Below, piece by piece: positions 3,831 through 57,217 of a stretch of DNA of 64,000 nt. Below the pieces are notes generated by a model. The model saw nothing but the letters and a program-made list of their open reading frames with translations. It was not told where the DNA came from and searched no databases. The stretch lies in the NCBI GenBank assembly GCA_013368315.1, contig JAACJM010000150.1, forward strand, positions 62,001 through 126,000, read 5' to 3'. The DNA is from Tetrapyrgos nigripes (taxonomy: Eukaryota; Basidiomycota; Agaricomycetes; Agaricales; Campanellaceae). A program made the position numbers and the translations under genes. Every line of letters starts with the position of its first letter. Position 1 is the first letter of the stretch.

Positions 3831-5129
3831 ATGTCAATAACCCTTCCTATCGATGAAATGTTACGCCTACGCCTGTCGCTCAAACTGGGACCAGACAGCC
3901 GGCTGACATTCGAAATGCTACCTATCAACGTTAACCGCTCTCCTCTCCCGGGTCAGCCATCCTTCCAAGCAAATCGCAAGCTGAGGTTCGAAGGGAAAGC
4001 TGATGGGACAGGATCTTTGCAACTTGATGTATGGGTTGAGGATGATATTGCTAAGGATTCCGGTACGTATCTACCACTTATTGTGAGTTTTCGATCTAAA
4101 ACTCACAATAACTCAGTTCAAGAGACATCAAGCTCCCTTGAAGACGCCGCTCAGGCTGCTGACCCGTTCTCCTTTCACGACGTCTTTTTTAGTCAGCCGA
4201 GTCAAAACCCAAACCTAGATGATGCTATGGACATCTCATATTCCCAGCCGGAGAGTACTCTATCATTTGACTCGTGGCCAAACTACTACGACGCCAATCG
4301 TACCCTTCCAATCGCTAATCAACCAGATTCAACATCTTTATTATCTGAATCATTCAACAGTTCACCGTGGGGATCAGATTTGGATATGACTCGTAAGAAA
4401 TGCTATAAAATACCCTCTCTGAACCAATAACTGAAAATCTACACAGAAATTATGTCTTCATTCGAATGTACGCTCTCGTCATCATGTTCCTTGTACAGTA
4501 TTCATGCTCACCTTGTGTCAGACCCAGAATCACCTGCCGACGTTGTATTTCCAAGTCCTGATCCAGAGCCAACATTGGCACCAGTACTCTCCGCTTCAGC
4601 AGCAGGGGAAGCATCCTCGAGCTCACTAAGCAGAACTATCACTTTCCCATCACCATCAACGCTGCCCACAACAAATTTTCTAGGATCTTCAGAAAATGGC
4701 ACTGATCCTCATTCCTCCTTCTCCGCTGAGCTTGGCACACTCAGTGACGGGCCCGACGGTGCTTCTCCATCGAACACATCGACTTCTCATAATGATACTA
4801 CGGAGAGTGCCACTGAAGATCTCGCTCGGCCTTGGCCTTGTCTCGAACCTGGATGTCCCAAGCGCTTTACTCGAAGTTATACTCGAAGTGTTCATATGGG
4901 AACTCACACACGAGCGAAACAAGAGCGAAAGGTGTTTCCTTGCCGAAATCCTGGTTGTCCTGAAAATTTTGGGCGAAAGCACGATAGATTAAGGCATGAA
5001 GTTGGGATCCATAAACTGGACTGTGAGTGGACGTGCAAGGAGTGTTCACGAGTTTTTTCATCGGAAACTTCGTTTGAGAGACATCTCTCAAGTACTGGAC
5101 ATCCTGATCATCGAGGACCTGCGGGGTAG
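3831..5129 (+). CDS. C2H2 zinc-finger protein (putative regulator)
   Basis: Likely nuclear DNA-binding regulator. Start ATG 3831 (MSITLPIDEMLRLRL); introns inferred at 4062-4115, 4392-4445 and 4470-4523, each 54 nt, with GT...AG ends; stop at 5127-5129. The N-terminal part is Ser/Asp-rich and disordered. The C-terminus holds three zinc fingers: CLEPGCPKRF...H...H, CRNPGCPENF...H...H, and CKECSRVFSSETSFERHL...H. The gene lies next to an SDR and upstream of a terpenoid-type cluster, so it could be a pathway regulator, but that is inference. A second, inverted and disrupted copy occurs at 43348-49273. Alternative: a regulator unrelated to the cluster. Confidence 0.82.
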
Positions 5130-35979: not shown

Positions 35980-38204
35980 ATGGACGTCTTAACTTCCAAC
36001 AGCTCTTCCCTGTTATCGTCGGATTTTGGCTCCTTGAGCTCACTGTACAATGCGACCAGTGAAAACGCCTATACACTGCTCGGTATTGCTTTAGCTGCGG
36101 TTCTCCTCTCGTGGGCTACCAAGAAACCACAAGGCCCCTTTCCTCCTGGTCCAAAGGTGCGTTCCACGTTTAAGATAACAGAGAACACCTCTGATCCTAA
36201 TGCCGTATCCTAGGGGATCCCGTTTTTTGGCAATGCGTTCCAATTACCGCACTCATTCACATGGGTAGGCTCAACTACTCTCTGTAGCTTTCGTTCTGTA
36301 GTCATTCTGGCCTTTTAGTTCAAATTCACAGAATGGGGACAGCAGTATGGTCCCATCGTCGGACTCAACATGGCCGGTCAACCAATGGTTATTTTAAACA
36401 CTGGCAAAGTTTGCGCAGATCTTATGGACAGGCGTTCCGTGATTTACTCGGACAGGCCTCGCTTCATCATGGCGTCCGAGATTCTTACTGGCGGAATGCT
36501 GGTCGGGTTCGCAAACTATGGCCCTGTGTACGTCGTCGCCCATTACCTCTACTGCCATTCACCTAATTCTCTGCAGATGGCGTCGTCTTCGAAAGGCGGC
36601 TCATTTGGGACTACATCTTCGTGCCGCCGAGTCATACTATCCCATTGAGGAACGCGAAGCTGCAATCCTTGTCAAAGACCTTTTGAGAGATCCTGCCTCA
36701 TGGGATAGTCATATTCGTCGGTACGTCATGTACACTTGTGTATATGTATTGGTCACCCATGTTTTCCTATCAGCTCCATCGCGTCGACAATGTTCAACGT
36801 CGTATACAATGGCGAGCCCCTTGCAACAAAGGAAGACCCTACCGTAGCCAAGGTAAGTCATCCGCGTACTATGTATTCCCGACGACCTCTGACTAGTTTT
36901 ACGAATCAGATAAACGCACTAATGCATCGCGTCGTCCAAGCCGCTCTGCCTGGGCGTTTCCTCGTCGAGATTATTCCTTGGATGCGTTATCTTCCGGATT
37001 GGATGGCTTCGTGGAAGAGGAAAGGAAAGGAAAGCTTTGTGGAAGATTCAAAGATGTTCAAAGGCTTCCTACAGAGCGTTAAAAATGAAGTCGTATGTTT
37101 AAGCTGGGTTGGATGTCTTTAGTGCATTACTGAAAGATCTTCCATTGATAGGCTACAGGTGACTATAAACCCAGCTTTGGCTCGCATCTCGTTTACCCCG
37201 GCAATCCTCATGGCCTCTCAAAGGATGAGGAGGCCTGGTTAGCCGGTATCATCTTGTGATTATACTTTTTTTTCGGCTCTTTGTCCTTTTTCTGATATTT
37301 GCGGCAGTGGTGCTGGCTCTGACTCTACGGCTGGGACGTTGGGATGGTTTATGCTTCTTATGGCTCTCCACCCTGAAGCTCAGGCCAAGGCACAAGAAGA
37401 GATTGACCGTGTTGTAGGTCGTCATAGACTACCCAACTTTGAAGATCGGGATAGTCTACCATACGTTAACGCGGTTGTGAAAGAGGTTTTGCGATGGCAT
37501 CCTGTCAGGTATGCTGTCTCTCTATACGACATTTTCGTTTCTCATCTCATGATTCTAATCAGCCCTCTCGGTCTCCCACATCGGCTCACGGAAGATGATT
37601 GGTACAACGGCTACTTCCTCCCCAAGGCATGTTCGATTACATGATACCCATTTCCTATCTTCTTAATGTTTTTAACTCTCAGGGCACGATTGTCGTTTCA
37701 AATATCTACGGTATCAACCGCGACCCAGAGTTCTTCCCCGACCCCGATGCTTTCAGGCCCGAGAGGTACTACAATGAAGATGAAGACCTCACCAAGAAAG
37801 CCGAATTCGACGATACCCATGGGCAAGGTCATTATTCGTATGGATTTGGACGTCGGTACGTAGATGTTGACCATTTTCTCGTCTCAATCGTCTCTTACTT
37901 CTTGCATTAGCGTATGCGTTGGCATGAACCTCGCCAACAATGCCCTTTTCATCAACATTGTTTCTATCCTCTGGGCTGTCAACGTCAAGTGTCCAGTTGG
38001 TCCCGATGGCAAGAAAATCATTCCTGACCGTAACAAGTTCATTGATGATGGACTGGTAGTGTGAGTTTCCTCCTTCTCGAGTCTAATTTGTTCGCCGACT
38101 TGTTCTGATTCTGATTTGTTGCCTATAGTCGCCCGGAACAATTCAATTGTGTAATTGAACCTCGGGAACATGATGTTAATGTGAAGCTGGGTGAGGGCTA
38201 TTAG
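35980..38204 (+). CDS. cytochrome P450 (third)
   Basis: Start ATG 35980 (MDVLTSNSSSLLSSDFG) with anchor NAYTLLGIALAAVLLSWA and hinge GPFPPGPKGIPFFGNAFQL (across an intron). Later exons show MAGQPMVILNTGKVC, DRRSVIYSDRPRFIMASEI, WRRLRKAAHLGLHLRAAESY, oxygen-binding SGAGSDSTAG, K-helix EVLR in VKEVLRWHPV, FRPERYYNE, haem loop YGFGRRVCVGMNLA. Stop 38202-38204. Close paralogue of the P450s at 30291 and 49800. All core residues are present. Confidence 0.9.
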
Positions 38205-47658: not shown

Positions 47659-47896
47659 ATTTGAGGGCCAAATAGAAAGAATGTTGTTTTTGATGTGTGC
47701 ACATAGAAAGACAAACGCAATAACTTGAGAAAGCAGTAAATTTTGCAGATCTATGGACTTCGCCCGAAGCGTTTGTACCAGCTCCGAGATAGAAACCATT
47801 TACAGCAGGAGGAAGGTGCGCGGAGGGCTGTAGAAGGGCGATGACGCGTTACCTTGCGTTCTTTCCAAACTTAGAAAGCCAGTTTCCCACACTGGC

Positions 47897-48052
47897 CTGT
47901 GGCCTGTATAGCTGTCTCGTATACCTGTCTCGTAGATTCTATGTCCCGTATGCTACGTTTCTGTCTCGTATCTATTTTTTGTCTCGTAAGTGTCCCGTAT
48001 GTTGTCTCGTATATGTGTCCCGTTGTCCCGTAATAGGTATGTCCCGTAATCC
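47897..48052. repeat. right subterminal GTCCCGT array
   Basis: Inverted counterpart of the left array, with GTCCCGT and GTCTCGT units at irregular 8-20 bp spacing. Confidence 0.75.
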
Positions 48053-49273
48053 TGCGTTCCCGGACAATTTGAGGATTTCGGCATGGAAACACCTTTCGCT
48101 CTTGTTTCGCTCGTGTGTGAGTCCCCATATGAACACTTCGAGTATAACTTCGAGTAAAGCGCTTGGGACATCCAGGTTCGAGACAAGGCCAAGGCCGAGC
48201 GAGATCTTCAATGGTACTCTCCGTAGCATCATTGTGAGAAGTCGATGTGTTCGATGGAGAAGCACCGTCGGGCCCGTCACTGAGTGTGCCAAGCTCAGCG
48301 GAGAAGGAGGAACGAGGATCAGTGCCATTTTCTGAAGATCCTAGCAAATTTGTTGTGGGCAGAGTTGATGGTGATGGAAAAGTGATAGTTCTGCTTAGTG
48401 AGCTCGAGGATGCTTCCCCTGCTGCTGAAGTGGAGAGTACTGATGCCAATGTTGGCTCTGGATCAGGACTTGCAAATACAACGTCGGCGGGTGATTCTGG
48501 GTCTGACACGAAGGTGAGCATGAATACTGTACAAGGAACATGATGACGAGAGCGTACATTCGAATGAAGACATAATTTCTGTGTAGATTTTCAGTTATTG
48601 GCTCAGAGAGGGTATTTTATAGCATTTCTTACGAGTCATATCCAAATCTGATCCCCACGATGAACTGTTGAATGATTCAGATAATAAAGATGTTGAATTT
48701 GGTTGATTAGCGATTGGAAGGGTACGATTGGCGTCGTAGTAGTTTGGCCACGAGTCGAATGATAGAGTACTCTCCGGCTGGGAATATGAGATATCCATGG
48801 CATCATCTAGGTTTAGGTTTTGACTCGGCTGACCAAAAAAGACGTCATGAAAGGAGAACGGGTCAGCAGCCTGAGCGGCGTCTTCAAGGGAGCTTGATGT
48901 CTCTTGAGCTGAGTTAGTGTGAGTTTTTAGAACTCTCGAAAACTCACAATAAGTGGTAGATACGTACTGGAATCCTTAGCAATATCATCCTCAACCCATA
49001 CATCAAGCTGCAAGGATCCTGTCCCATCAGCTTTCCCTTCGAACCTCAGCTTGCGATTTGCTTGGAAGGATGGCTGACCCGAGAGAGGAGAGCGGTTAAC
49101 GTTATAGGTAGCATTTCGAATGTCAGCCGGCTGTCTGCTCCCAGTTTGAGCGACAGGCGTAGGCGTAGGATTTCATCGATAGGAAGGGTTATTGACATCT
49201 TGTGTCAGAAGCAACCCCTATCAAGGCTACTTTTTGTATAACGTTGGTGCTTACGTGCGGGAAAGCCTTTACC

Positions 49274-49799
49274 TTCATTCTCACTACTGATCATCTTAGA
49301 GTTCCTGAACTCGAACCGAACCCGGGGTTCTTTACAGCGAACGAATGATATTGCAAGATCCTGACTAACGAAGGCATTCCCAGCCAAACGAACCGCCATA
49401 GGAACAAGTTTTTGCGCATGTGCACATGAAGTATTTGCGCGCGGCTCACAAAAGTTTTTGGGCGCGGAATTATTTAACCGATGGAACTATGGCGTTTGTT
49501 TGTACAAATATTATTTCACACGCGCGCGCCGTCCTCGGCCCACCTCACTAGGTCTATTCCGTCAGTGTTTCTCAACTCATCTTCCTTCTTCCACAACAAG
49601 AAATCCATCCGGTAAATGTCTGTGCTCGACCTTTCCGTACGTTTTCTAGCTCAGAAGATTATCTCTCTCTACCGTAACTAAAACTGAATTGCTATAATCA
49701 TTTAACCTAGGAGATTACAACTACAAAAGCAATAACAAACGATTATTTCTTCGAGAACAACACTGCATACTCGAAACTACATTTGAAAACAGTGAGTCA
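49274..49799. other. intergenic with a fragment of SDR exon
   Basis: At 49334-49371 the plus strand repeats, with small gaps, the exon sequence at 6231-6271 of the SDR gene (GAACGAATGATATTGCAAGA then CTAACGAAGG). The rest is unremarkable. Confidence 0.55.
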
Positions 49800-52078
49800 T
49801 CACCAGATCTTCTTCTTTGCCATCGCAAGCATAGCGTCTACATCCTCTGAGCGCGGCGCAATCTTGCAGTGGAACGGAACAGGTCGACTAAACCCAAACA
49901 GATTAGAATAAACATCAATGCCAGAACTCAGGTGTTTGAAACAAAAGGACAAGAACTCACACCACTAGACCCTCGTCCACGCATTCTGTACGTGAAGGGA
50001 TAATTTCGGCGCCTGTTTCATCATAGGCAGCTTCAATACTCGCAGCCCAAAGTAACGATGCGATATCAATGAACAGTGCCTGATTAGCAATGTTTAACCC
50101 GATGCAAATGCTATGCAAAGTATGAGTATTCAAGAAAGTGACAAGATCACAGGCGCAGTCACACTCACCGCCGACCAAAGCCAAAAGTGACATGTCCTTG
50201 ATTGTGAGTATCCGGTGGAACAATTTCCAAAGTCCCTGTCTTGTCCAAAAACCTCTCAGGACGGAATTCGTCATAATCCGGGAAGATGGCTGGGTCGCGG
50301 TTCATGGCCCAGACATTTGCGATAACTAGGGAGCCTTTAGGAATGAAGTATCCTTCGTAAAAGTCATCCTAGGGTCTTTCAATATAGACATTCCTACGAA
50401 CGCCAAGGGCGAATAAACGTACCTTCATTGCTCTCCTGGGAAGCCCTAAAGGTCCTACAGGTCTCCATCGTAAGACTTCCTTGACAATAGCTCGAATATA
50501 TGGAAGATTCTTCCTATCCTCAAATGTTGGAAGCCTATCTCGTCCCACTACAGCATCGATTTCTGCTTGAGCTTTCTTCATGACGTTGGGGTATAATCGC
50601 ATTGCCAGAATGAAAACGCTAAGGGCTGCAGCAGTCTAGAAACCGGCACCGTGTCAATGAAAAAATACTAAGGGACCTCAAGCGTTAATGAAACAACTCA
50701 CAGTTTCAGCACCAGCTCCACTGCACACGAAAGGTAATTAGTGATATTGAAGGCACGCAAGTCTTCAACACGAAACACATACAACATCGTGCCTGCTAGC
50801 CAACTCTCCTCTTTTGTACTCAGCTGGTGCGTCTTTTTTTTCTCAATGAGCCCAGCGGCAAAGCTTGGTTTTGCTTCTCCGGCGTTCTAAATGAGTGTGA
50901 GTAAGTATATACGACTGGCAGGAAACGGAATGCGACAAACCACTTGTTTCCTCACTCCATCCATAAACTCTTGGAACATGACTGTATCTTTTCGATGCCA
51001 TTCCATACCTTCCTTTTTCCATGGTGCAATAGCTTCGGGAAGGTGTTTCATGACAGGGAAGATATCGACGAGAAAAGAACCGGGAAGGGTTGCACGGACC
51101 AATCGATGCATAAGGTCCTAGAATCATTAATGCAACGCGTCAGAATCCTCGCTCCAACGGATATACAGAGAAATGAAGCAAACGAAGCTCACGTTGATTC
51201 GCGTAATCAGTGGGTCATCTTTAGTTTTGATTGGGTCCATACCATAGACAGCGGTCAAGATCGTGGATGCCGCCGATCTATGGGCCAATACCGAAGGTTT
51301 TCTCAGTTGAAATTTGACGAATGTATGAAGGAAACTTTACCTCTTCAGATGATCATCCCATGAAATAGGATCTTTGAGCATGTTATCAACAAGAACAGCA
51401 GCTTCCTTCTCTTGTGAAGGCTGGTAGACTTCGGAGGCGCGAACATTGAGCCCTTCATGCGATGCCTTTCTCAGTTTTCGCCATCTGCGTTCACCGGTAT
51501 AATTATGTCAAAAGATATGACCCAACACGTAGCCACTTACAACTCTCCGTAGCCAGAGAACGCAATGAAAATCTTCCCGGTCAGAATTTCCCCTGCCATT
51601 ATGAACCTGAAAAGATGGATACATCAGCTCATGGTGGATATGATTGCATTTGGATGCTACCTTGGACGATCACTGTAGACTGCCGAACGACGATCTGGAG
51701 TCACAATCATCAGAAATACGCGAATATCAGGAGCATGTATGGACGTGCCTAACAGGTCTGCAGTCACTTTGTGCGAATTGAGAACGATAACAGTCTGACC
51801 AGCAAGATTGAGTGAGAATATAGGACCTGTCAGGTGAACGTGATTAGAGATAAATGTTGTCGCATTACATGGCGTAAAGACATACCAAACTCCTCCTTCC
51901 ATTCCGTGAAACGAAGCCATTGGAATTGGGGCAGTTGGAATAGATTGCCAAGAAGAGGAAGACCCTTGGGTCCAGGAGGCAGGTTGTGCTTGGGCTGGAA
52001 AAACAGGTGAACACTCAAGGTGATTAAGGTGACAAGACCGAGGGCTTGCCAAGAGCCTGGAATTACTGGGAAATCCAT
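49800..52078 (-). CDS. cytochrome P450 (fourth)
   Basis: ATG 52078 ([18 protein letters not shown], anchor), hinge [18 protein letters not shown]. Exons show [97 protein letters not shown] (oxygen-binding, Glu form), K-helix EVLR in [27 protein letters not shown], haem loop [14 protein letters not shown]. Stop TGA 49802-49800 after KKKIW. Close relative of the P450s at 30291 and 35980. It is divergent from the EthD gene with 231 bp between starts. Confidence 0.9.
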
Positions 52079-53830: not shown

Positions 53831-56782
53831 ATGTCTGAAACTAAAGTCGGCAAGGTCGCTCCTTTTCCACCGCTTCCAGGCCACCCATACCCTCCCGTTC
53901 GAAACCATCCACGATGGAAAGGTTACTCAACAACTACTATTGATTCTCAGCATGCCACTAACCCTTTCCCACTCTTTTTACAGAGCTCTATAGGCTCCAT
54001 GACGAATGGATGATGAAATACTGGCCTTTCAGTAGCGAGAAGAAGAGGTCTCGCATTCCTTTCATGAATTTGGCAGGGTTTAGCACTTGGTGTCAGTCCT
54101 TAGCCACTGTGGAATCACCAACTTGTATCTGACTTATCATTCTTAGGTGCGCCCGCGGCTGATTTCAATCGCATGGTCTGGGGTGCTCGAATCGCTGGGA
54201 TTTTCTTCCTGGCGGACGATTATATCGATAGTGGAAAGATGCTGGACAGAATTCCGGGTTTCAAAACAGCAGCCACTGGCACTGGAGTTAGTGATGTACC
54301 TTCTCTAGTCATCGTGGTTTATATTGATTGTCTCCTTTCCTCTAGCCTCTTCACGAAGAAGATCAAGCCGAGATTTGCCACGATATTGTCTTCCGCGCTA
54401 TTAAAGCTACCAGTCACCCGCGCACTTTCGACCAATTGACTAAATGCACGCACGAGTGGTGGGAGTAAGTAGCAACATCTGCATTTCAGGTGTCCCTCCT
54501 CATGATTCACCCGTCGTAGCTCAAACATCCATGAGCCTTTCAAGAATTTGGACCAGTATCTTGCAGTTAGACGTGTTAACATTGCAATGGTGAGTTTACA
54601 TGAGATTCGTATTTGAGCATGATACTCACAGCAATCATCGAATCCTTTAGTATTTCGCAAATGGTGAATTCTTCTCTCCTTCTCTATTCGAAGCGGATTT
54701 AATGACGATGAGCAATCAGCTTATTTCCGGTACACCCTCGACATCAATCTCACCGATGAGCAAATTAATCATCCCTTGATGCGTGAAGCCGAAGGTATCG
54801 TCTCAGGTAATGGCATAAACTTCAGTTCAAGTACAAGTGGCCCATTGCAGACTCTCTACAGATCACGTCGGTCTCACAAACGACTTTTTCTCTTACCTCA
54901 AGGAGAAAATGACCAACTCAGATGATACGAACATCGTTCGAATCCTCATGGAACATGAGAACCTGACCTACCCCGAGGCCAAAGTTGTCATCGAGAAGAA
55001 AATCCGCCAGAAAGAGCAAGATTTTATCGGTGCTGGTATGGCCGTCTTGAACGATCCGAGCTTGGGAAAGATCCAGAAGTATATAAGTGGATTGCAAATT
55101 TGCAATACTGCATGGGCGGTAATTTGGCTTGGTCGCAGGAGGTGTGTGCCTTTAAAGCTTGACCCGTCGACGTTTACGACTGAATTGTGGATCCTAAATC
55201 TATCTCAGAGCGGTAGATATAATGTCGGCGACATTGACGGAATCACCTTCCCTTCACTGTCGTGGGCGGCGGAGCCTACACCCGAAGACGAAGTTGTCGA
55301 TGATACCGAGGAGAGTTTACGCCGCGACAAAATATTCAACGTTGACGCCAAGGACATTCCACCACCGGACTTTACAATTGATGACGATGAAATTTTCTTG
55401 TCGAATCCACACGCGCACATTCAACAATACGTGAAACTGCCTGAACGCCCCAAGAATGTTGGAATTATTGGTTTGGAAGTATCCATACCTGAGCAAGTAC
55501 GTGAAATTTCCCAGTACCTTATTCTTGCCAACTAAACTTCTGCCAACAGTACATCGCTGTCCAGGCTTTCGAGAATACCGATGGTGTCGCACCTGGCACA
55601 TACTCATCTAGCCTTGGGCCAGTGTACTTCCCTGACACCTCGGAGGACAAGGTCTCCATCATCTTTGCTCTTCTCGAAAAATACAACATTAACCCACACG
55701 CGATCGGCCGAGTGGACACTATCGCCGACTGTAGACTGCCCAAGTCTGCTCAGGCTAAACTGGAACGCTCATTTGACGAGGGTGCAGAGTTCACAAACAG
55801 CAAAGGCATCACGTCTGCCATCTTCAACGCAGTCAATTGGATAGAGAGTTCTAGCTGGAATGGAAGGATATGCGCTCGTATTTGGAAGGAACAACGGTGC
55901 CGCTGCTTCGGGAGAAGTAGCATTGCTTATTGGGCCCGACGCACCGCTTGTGCTTGAACGTAAGTGATCGCCACTGCATCCTTCCCGACCAATCTAATTC
56001 GTTACATGGATAGCCATACACGGTGCTTCCATCACTTCCGGCACTCCCGCTTCTCTTGCCACATACCTGAAAACACTCGACAAAAGCTTGAGTGCGTATG
56101 AACGCAAGGTTGAGAAGGCGGCAGTCAAAGCGGAACATCTGCTTGCCACCGCCGTGAAGCTTTCAGATTTCGACTTTTCGATCTTCGAGAGCCCCAAACC
56201 TGAGTATGTTCAAAAGGCTTATAGCCACATGGTACGTTTTAGAACCACTATTTTTGAATATAAAGAGCTCAATATCATCTTTTAGACATACCACGACTTT
56301 GTGGCGCATCCACCATCCTCTGCCTCTCGAGAATCCATTCCTGCATCAATGGACGAGAACTCTTTCCAGGATTGGAACTTGGCCAAAAGGGAAATCAACG
56401 GCACACCCATTGATCAAATTTCAAAAGCGCAATACACCGAATCAGTTATCCCGTCTCAGCTGCTCTCCACCGTACTCGGAAATGCGTATGCTAGTTCCCT
56501 GTACGCAGGTCTCGCTTCACTGCTCACAAACATCCCTTCATACGAGCTGTTCGATAAGAGGATTTCGATGTTCCAGTACGATGGCTCTGGCGCGAGTACA
56601 TTCTTCGCTATCAGGGTCAGAGGCGATACCTCTCATATCCAGAGACGGTTGGATTTGAAGAGTAGACTGGCAAAGATGGATCTGGTGACACCTTCAGTGT
56701 ATCAGAACGAAGCCAGGATGGAGGTAGGGACTGCTGAGGTGCAATTACTGAGGCAAAGGGCGATTACTGTTTCTGCTGCTTA
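53831..56782 (+). CDS. terpene synthase fused to HMG-CoA-synthase-like domain (two frame breaks)
   Basis: ATG 53831 (MSETKVGKVAPFPPLPGHP). Exons 1-8 build a class I terpene synthase: RIAGIFFLADDYID (metal-binding DDxxD-type, about residue 90), HVGLTNDFFSYLKE (NSE motif, about 214), CMGGNLAWSQE|SGRYN (C-terminal RY motif, across a 67-nt intron). One exon then continues without a break through an acidic linker (EPTPEDEVVDDTEESL) into an HMGS-like domain: RPKNVGIIGLEVSIPEQ, NTDGVAPGTY, LEKYNINPHAIGRVD, SAIFNAVNWIESSSWNG, LLIGPDAPLVLEPIHGA, NAYASSLYAGLASLL. The HMGS catalytic Glu, Cys and His positions are all replaced (see findings). One base is missing near 55069 and one extra near 55866 for the frame to run through, so it is either a recent pseudogene or has sequence errors. 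The likely reaction of the first half is farnesyl diphosphate cyclisation. Confidence 0.8.
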
Positions 56783-57217
56783 AGTACTATGTATTAACTC
56801 GGGTTGTATAGGTAGAATACTGATAGAGAATTTCCAGGGTTTTCGGGAATCCACACGGAAACAACGGGAAGATTTGAAAGAAACATAGAGCAACGCGTGG
56901 AGCGCGAATGGCACGGTGTCGAGAATGAGTGCTACAGTGAGGCATACGGCAGACCCTCTGCGTAACGGAAGTGAAGGGAAGGGCGAGCAGCCTTATAGAG
57001 TCGGAGAGCGCAAAAGACATACCTCCAGTCTTCAACATGCTCCCTCGTTCCTAACCCACTTTCAGATTCCTCCAATGCCTTTTGCAATGAGTGGTCCCAT
57101 CAGTAAAAGTGGAAGTCTATAATCGGTATATCCGGTATATTGGTATCACGGTCATACCCTGTCATACCAAGCGAGCCCCACCCCCGAATATACACATGGT
57201 ATTTCCGTCATACAGAC
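56783..57217. other. 3' flank of terpene synthase fusion
   Basis: No gene. Direct motifs GGTATATCCGGTATATTGG begin near 57127 and recur around 60130-60160, suggesting leftovers of a further repeat. Confidence 0.4.

Follow-up and report, generated by a model that had tools for sequence, protein, structure and literature searches.

Two proteins in which a sesquiterpene synthase (STS) is fused to an HMG-CoA synthase (HMGS) domain have been reviewed, HS-HMGS of Stereum hirsutum and A8411 of Steccherinum ochraceum, both of them producers of hirsutene according to the available excerpt of PMC9501842 (HS-HMGS is also treated in the accessible part of PMC7409058); the primary sources, Flynn and Schmidt-Dannert 2018 for HS-HMGS and Wang 2022 for A8411, were compared via papers citing them. 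A secondary account (PMC12667498, in excerpt) states that HS-HMGS forms HMG-CoA besides cyclising, and describes its product class and substrate differently from the reviews. A gene of this architecture lies on the plus strand, at 53831-56783, of a 64,000-nucleotide stretch of Tetrapyrgos nigripes DNA (the window; positions 62001-126000 of the 199,685-base contig C147, in an assembly of 98.5 Mb). Its HMGS half lacks the three catalytic residues of the canonical enzyme, and the evidence leans, on balance, towards a member of the STS-HMGS (hirsutene-synthase type) family whose HMGS domain is a structurally retained pseudoenzyme. The STS-HMGS architecture is already known; the catalytically dead yet retained HMGS half is the unusual part. 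Loss of catalytic residues is not described in the available portions of the literature on such fusions, which do not include the original HS-HMGS and A8411 reports.

The gene is that of the public T. nigripes protein D9758_011143 (P0001) and consists of 12 exons encoding, in this order, a class I STS, an acidic linker and an HMGS-like domain. Each of the 11 introns (50-67 bases) is of the GT-AG type, with 22 of 22 splice-site dinucleotides intact. According to the splice-site model, the STS is encoded by exons 1 to 4 (53831-53921, 53984-54091, 54147-54295 and 54346-54464), exons 5 to 8 (54520-54589, 54651-54663, 54720-54806 and 54862-55141) and the beginning of exon 9. Its class I assignment is based on the Asp-rich metal-binding motif (DDYID, 54215-54229), the NSE motif (NDFFSYLKE, 54879-54905) and the RY motif (SGRY in exon 9, where the C-terminus reads SGRYNVGD), together with a PF19086 match in P0001 (E 5.4e-18). 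HS-HMGS likewise combines an STS containing DDYID and NDFFSYLKE with a C-terminal HMGS (PMC10608071, available text), and the window STS is 84% identical to that of Somion (269 of 320 positions). The HMGS domain follows in the same gene: exon 10 (55550-55959) encodes its N-terminal half, exon 11 (56014-56231) continues it, and exon 12 (56286-56783, stop codon at 56781-56783) encodes its C-terminal half (NAYASSLYAGLASLL, KRISMFQYDGSG). Exon 12 matches HMGS sequences in PDB (best E 2.3e-08), and P0001 contains both PF01154 and PF08540 above cut-off (E 6e-35 for PF08540). The two enzymes meet in exon 9 (55209-55496; three-frame translation and relatives), where a single frame runs from the STS C-terminus with its RY motif (55209-55262) through the acidic linker (55263-55394) into the HMGS fold (RPKNVGIIGLEVSIPEQ), which begins at 55446. 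Because this exon crosses the junction in a single frame, the fusion is present in the DNA; the original prediction had placed the same joining exon at 55208-55498.

The fused domain was aligned with canonical fungal HMGS sequences, five in one alignment and 30 in another, the latter hand-picked from 157 proteins found (fused ones counted; P0070, which has an odd C-terminus, and P0121 were used in the tree and excluded from the 30 rows). In both alignments, the column of the catalytic Glu is occupied by Asp (GTE to IAD, 55721-55729) and that of the catalytic His by Glu (IFHSP to IFESP, 56181-56195), and the column of the catalytic Cys contains Lys or a gap (NACYG to NSKGI, 55796-55810, one residue shorter). 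Moreover, the segment DFYKP...EYPEVDG is gone after IHGA (56016-56030, exon 11), as is most of the glycine-rich loop. The original prediction had read the same three replacements, including the residue lost from NACYGG, and a segment missing after HGA from a hand alignment, and all of these are borne out. All three catalytic columns of the domain are thus altered; its sole Cys, in IADC, lies outside the nucleophile site and was rejected as an alternative position for the catalytic Cys. With Glu, Cys and His all replaced or gapped, the fused domain does not classify as an HMGS enzyme. With the canonical T. nigripes HMGS (P0086) it has the predicted fold in common and is 36% identical (374 positions), but it lacks all three residues; the canonical HMGS on contig C71 contains GTE, NACYG and FHSP. 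HS-HMGS differs in the same respect, its HMGS being described as catalytic in the available accounts, and A8411 resembles the window protein in being a fusion enzyme, one that makes hirsutene (PMC9501842, in excerpt); both were compared by description only.

Protein searches, each scoring ~8000 candidates, returned fused STS-HMGS proteins from Somion occarium, Cerrena zonata, Hebeloma cylindrosporum, Collybia nuda (a short model) and Cyclocybe aegerita; no further fusion was found beyond those species among the best 120 of 275 matches that one search yields, and no Stereum- or Steccherinum-named protein occurs among the matches listed, many of which are nameless. The same fusion and linker are found in the gene models of Somion, Cerrena, Hebeloma and Collybia. 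Among the six degenerate domains compared (these five and that of Tetrapyrgos), Cys is lost in 6/6 and Glu in 5/6 (Cyclocybe reads ICIE), and His is replaced in the window, Somion, Cerrena and Hebeloma (the short Collybia model ends before the His column). The fusion and its residue losses, whose conservation had been proposed as a check, thus recur in relatives: Cys is missing from 5/5 other degenerate fusions, and the remaining residues are mostly missing. The Cyclocybe protein (P0033; Delta(6)-protoilludene synthase in UniRef) resembles the window protein in consisting of an STS and an HMGS-like domain without Cys and several segments, but its STS, only 26% identical, belongs to a different cyclase lineage, and it retains Glu and possibly His at the catalytic columns. 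A degenerate HMGS domain occurs on two cyclase lineages, that of the hirsutene type and that of the so-named protoilludene synthase of Cyclocybe. HMGS trees place the seven fused domains together on one side of a branch, whose support is only 77/79, and the end branches are very long, a topology that would fit one origin as well as several. A Pluteus cervinus model (P0006) starts within the fusion linker and retains Glu and Cys, with Gln in place of His; judged by its sequence, it is probably a split STS-HMGS gene at an intermediate stage. Stereum (active according to a secondary report), Pluteus (intermediate), the six degenerate domains and the nearly HMGS-less Hermanssonia and Phlebia form a series of degeneracy. 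The Stereum HMGS is also said to complement yeast. Such a series can tell a catalytic from a structural role of the fusion, so that the oddity of a mevalonate enzyme joined to a cyclase becomes testable, and pseudoenzyme domains can hide in mushroom genes whose annotation reads HMG-CoA synthase or terpene synthase.

The distribution of the losses disfavours uniform decay, since they are concentrated in active-site motifs. In the canonical fungal HMGS, 139 positions have the same residue in 29 or all 30 of the sequences; at these positions (the active-site motifs being picked from background knowledge of HMGS), the window domain keeps 11 of 47 inside active-site motifs versus 56 of 92 outside (Fisher p 3e-5), and when only ungapped positions are counted, 11 of 33 versus 56 of 84 (p 0.0016). 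The other five degenerate domains deviate in the same direction (p 0.00016 to 0.025); Pluteus showed no such excess of active-site loss in this test. Four or more of the six degenerate domains retain the invariant residue at 39 of these positions; 4 of the 39 lie inside the active-site motifs and 35 outside, many of the latter in the NWxESxxWDGRxAIV and GPxAPxV blocks and in the LxxL and KR region close to the C-terminus, a distribution that can be read as retention of the structural core and loss of the catalytic loops. A second line of evidence is provided by another copy, decayed and comprising the end of the HMGS, which lies 42 kb further downstream at C147:160 kb and has a frame change and a stop of its own and the exon 10/11 intron in matching position (by eye); a genome search found no second full match to exon 12. 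Over 147 alignable codons, from which badly aligning portions of exons 11 and 12 are excluded, the two copies differ with pN 0.129 and pS 0.614, a ratio of 0.21 (bootstrap 0.14-0.30), and differences at codon positions 1, 2 and 3 number 28, 14 and 65. As both copies have Glu at the His site (IFESP in the window, VFEMP at C147:160 kb), the domain had probably already lost its His when this constraint acted. Structure prediction, another check proposed at the outset, gave models from two species in which the HMGS (thiolase-type) fold is predicted to be retained.

Active-site-biased loss and the pN/pS ratio of 0.21 favour a retained pseudoenzyme over free decay, and the HMGS domain is probably dead but constrained. 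The idea of a pseudoenzyme, put forward in the original prediction, is accordingly strengthened by residue loss in relatives, the fold models, the bias of the losses and purifying selection, although the fusion itself is not new. The scaffolding, dimerising or regulatory function suggested along with it is conjectural. An ancestral fusion would have contained a working HMGS, whose catalysis could have been dispensable given the canonical enzyme, with its three residues, on C71; the fused domain would then have been kept for structure. HMGS enzymes are dimers with a thiolase-type fold. The most likely role, admittedly a guess, is that the dimer interface holds two cyclase units together and stabilises the STS; dimerisation specifically is put forward tentatively, as one possibility. 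A thiolase-fold subunit without Cys that is retained as a structural partner is known from type II polyketide synthases, the chain length factor (KS-beta); it belongs to another family and pairs with an active KS, whereas the window domain is fused to a cyclase. By analogy, the dead HMGS might pair with the active housekeeping HMGS and so tether the cyclase to, or regulate, the mevalonate entry step, which is considered improbable.

The window copy itself, as assembled, is not an intact member of the family, in that its 12-exon coding sequence is not one open frame. Three-frame translation and comparison with relatives place one frame change within exon 8, in the STS C-terminal helices (~55066-55080, with DPSLG upstream and KDPEVYKWIANLQYCMGGNLAWSQE downstream), and another within exon 10, in the HMGS, between WIESSSWNG and YALVFGRNN (~55853-55866). 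The original prediction of a joined fusion product is upheld for the junction exon but had overlooked both changes. A missed intron was rejected as their cause, as relatives read straight across both sites. When intron 8 is kept, 54819-55535 (exon 8, intron 8 and exon 9) forms one open frame, by which the change in exon 8 is hidden from gene finders. D9758_011143 translates through intron 8 and, to go by its sequence, apparently relies on an intron of 13 bases at 55832-55844, which is implausible; the model should be corrected or annotated as that of a pseudogene. Whether this copy was recently broken, with the cluster being lost in T. nigripes, is judged an even call, and one compatible with a retained pseudoenzyme at the level of the family. 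The two frame changes would be part of such a loss, as would the copy at C147:160 kb, found only as the HMGS C-terminal part with a frame change and a stop, and the relic of a Cyclocybe-like HMGS on contig C87, which contains a stop and an insertion; the intact splice sites and the exon sequence outside both changes, which is open in the homologous frame, speak against it, as does the small size of the two changes, for which errors in the assembly could account.

Several observations weigh against a structurally retained pseudoenzyme and, in part, for a vestigial domain, that is, an HMGS that became redundant after the fusion, is decaying and persists merely as the downstream part of one gene. 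Between genera (excluding the short Collybia model and the close pair Somion/Cerrena, STS 96% identical), identity is 81-86% for the STS and 43-69% for the linker (comparisons with Pluteus, which concern the linker alone, reach up to 70%), whereas the gap-rich fused HMGS is 27-35% identical among the five hirsutene-type degenerate domains (Somion/Cerrena 69%), for which the STS range across genera is 73-86%; canonical HMGS of T. nigripes and Collybia are 80% identical. The fused HMGS thus diverges fast relative to the STS. Public models from Hermanssonia and Phlebia comprise the STS and linker and end near the HMGS beginning, from which it follows that the domain can be lost. The Stereum STS is reportedly active on its own, which, together with a secondary statement, backed by the reference also given for HS-HMGS, that several such fusions have no apparent advantage over separate domains (PMC12667498, in excerpt), weakens the case for a needed structural role. 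The residue losses are not uniform either: both alignments show Cyclocybe with a Glu at the catalytic Glu position, and its His column depends on the alignment (Ser in the first, His in the second, within the low-complexity GAHTPT), so that only its Cys loss is sure, and in Somion and Cerrena a His lies one residue off the His column (TDHPE). The pN/pS estimate covers alignable pieces only, with one copy now dead; the input alignments of the models contained real HMGS, which biases them towards that fold; and the window copy may be recently broken or carry assembly errors. The frame changes and the decayed copies elsewhere would also fit a vestigial domain. Nonetheless, this explanation is regarded as rather unlikely, given the constraint in the alignable part on two copies that both lack His, the clustering of losses in active-site motifs instead of their even distribution, and the fold predicted to be retained in two species.

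Two further explanations can be largely dismissed. That the HMGS part is still active through other residues, for which the HMG-CoA formation ascribed to the Stereum relative would speak (PMC12667498, in excerpt), is highly improbable: its lone Cys is off-site, the three catalytic residues are missing, and so are the DFYKP segment and most of the glycine-rich loop. Equally improbable are two separate transcripts, and two separate genes were rejected, on the continuity of exon 9 across the junction and the same fusion and linker in the gene models of four relatives.

Beside the fusion, DNA and protein comparison identified a P450-like gene on the minus strand (49796-52078, ends approximate); P450s are likewise part of the HS-HMGS gene cluster (PMC8705726, available text). 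A Pfam scan of three stretches of this gene gave no match. Stretches ~70% identical to it occur at four main places before the HMGS relic on the same contig (C147:142.7-154.3 kb), two of these copies having weak P450 Pfam matches just below cut-off, and a further P450 piece lies at window 37243-37641. From this arrangement, a block of P450 and fusion seems to have been duplicated (C147:142.7-160.3 kb) and then to have largely lost the fusion gene. The HMGS-like relic on C87 (G000:C87:174500-184400, ~5359 down to 3860, minus strand) is closest to the Cyclocybe type and has a stop and a ~400-base insertion; its Cys motif is absent and FHSP reads FGTP. The 9.9 kb examined there contained no match to an STS, and no open stretch >151 aa was found beside the relic. 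Elsewhere in the window, open stretches at 4431-5126 (plus strand) and 47874-48590 (minus strand) have the segment SDPESPADVVF-SPDPEPTLA-VLS-SAAGE in common and are possibly copies of one repeat. HSP70 loci were screened for assembly frame errors: at several loci, for example on C139, C65 and C24, gaps of intron size separate the pieces. Two pieces on C94, by contrast, overlap while reading in different frames, and the distance between adjacent pieces on C22 and C136 is 4 bases. The HSP70-like loci on the latter two contigs (G000:C22:728149-729286 and C136:210328-211465) are nearly equal in scores and spacing, and possibly reflect a duplication, either of contigs or of a broken gene.
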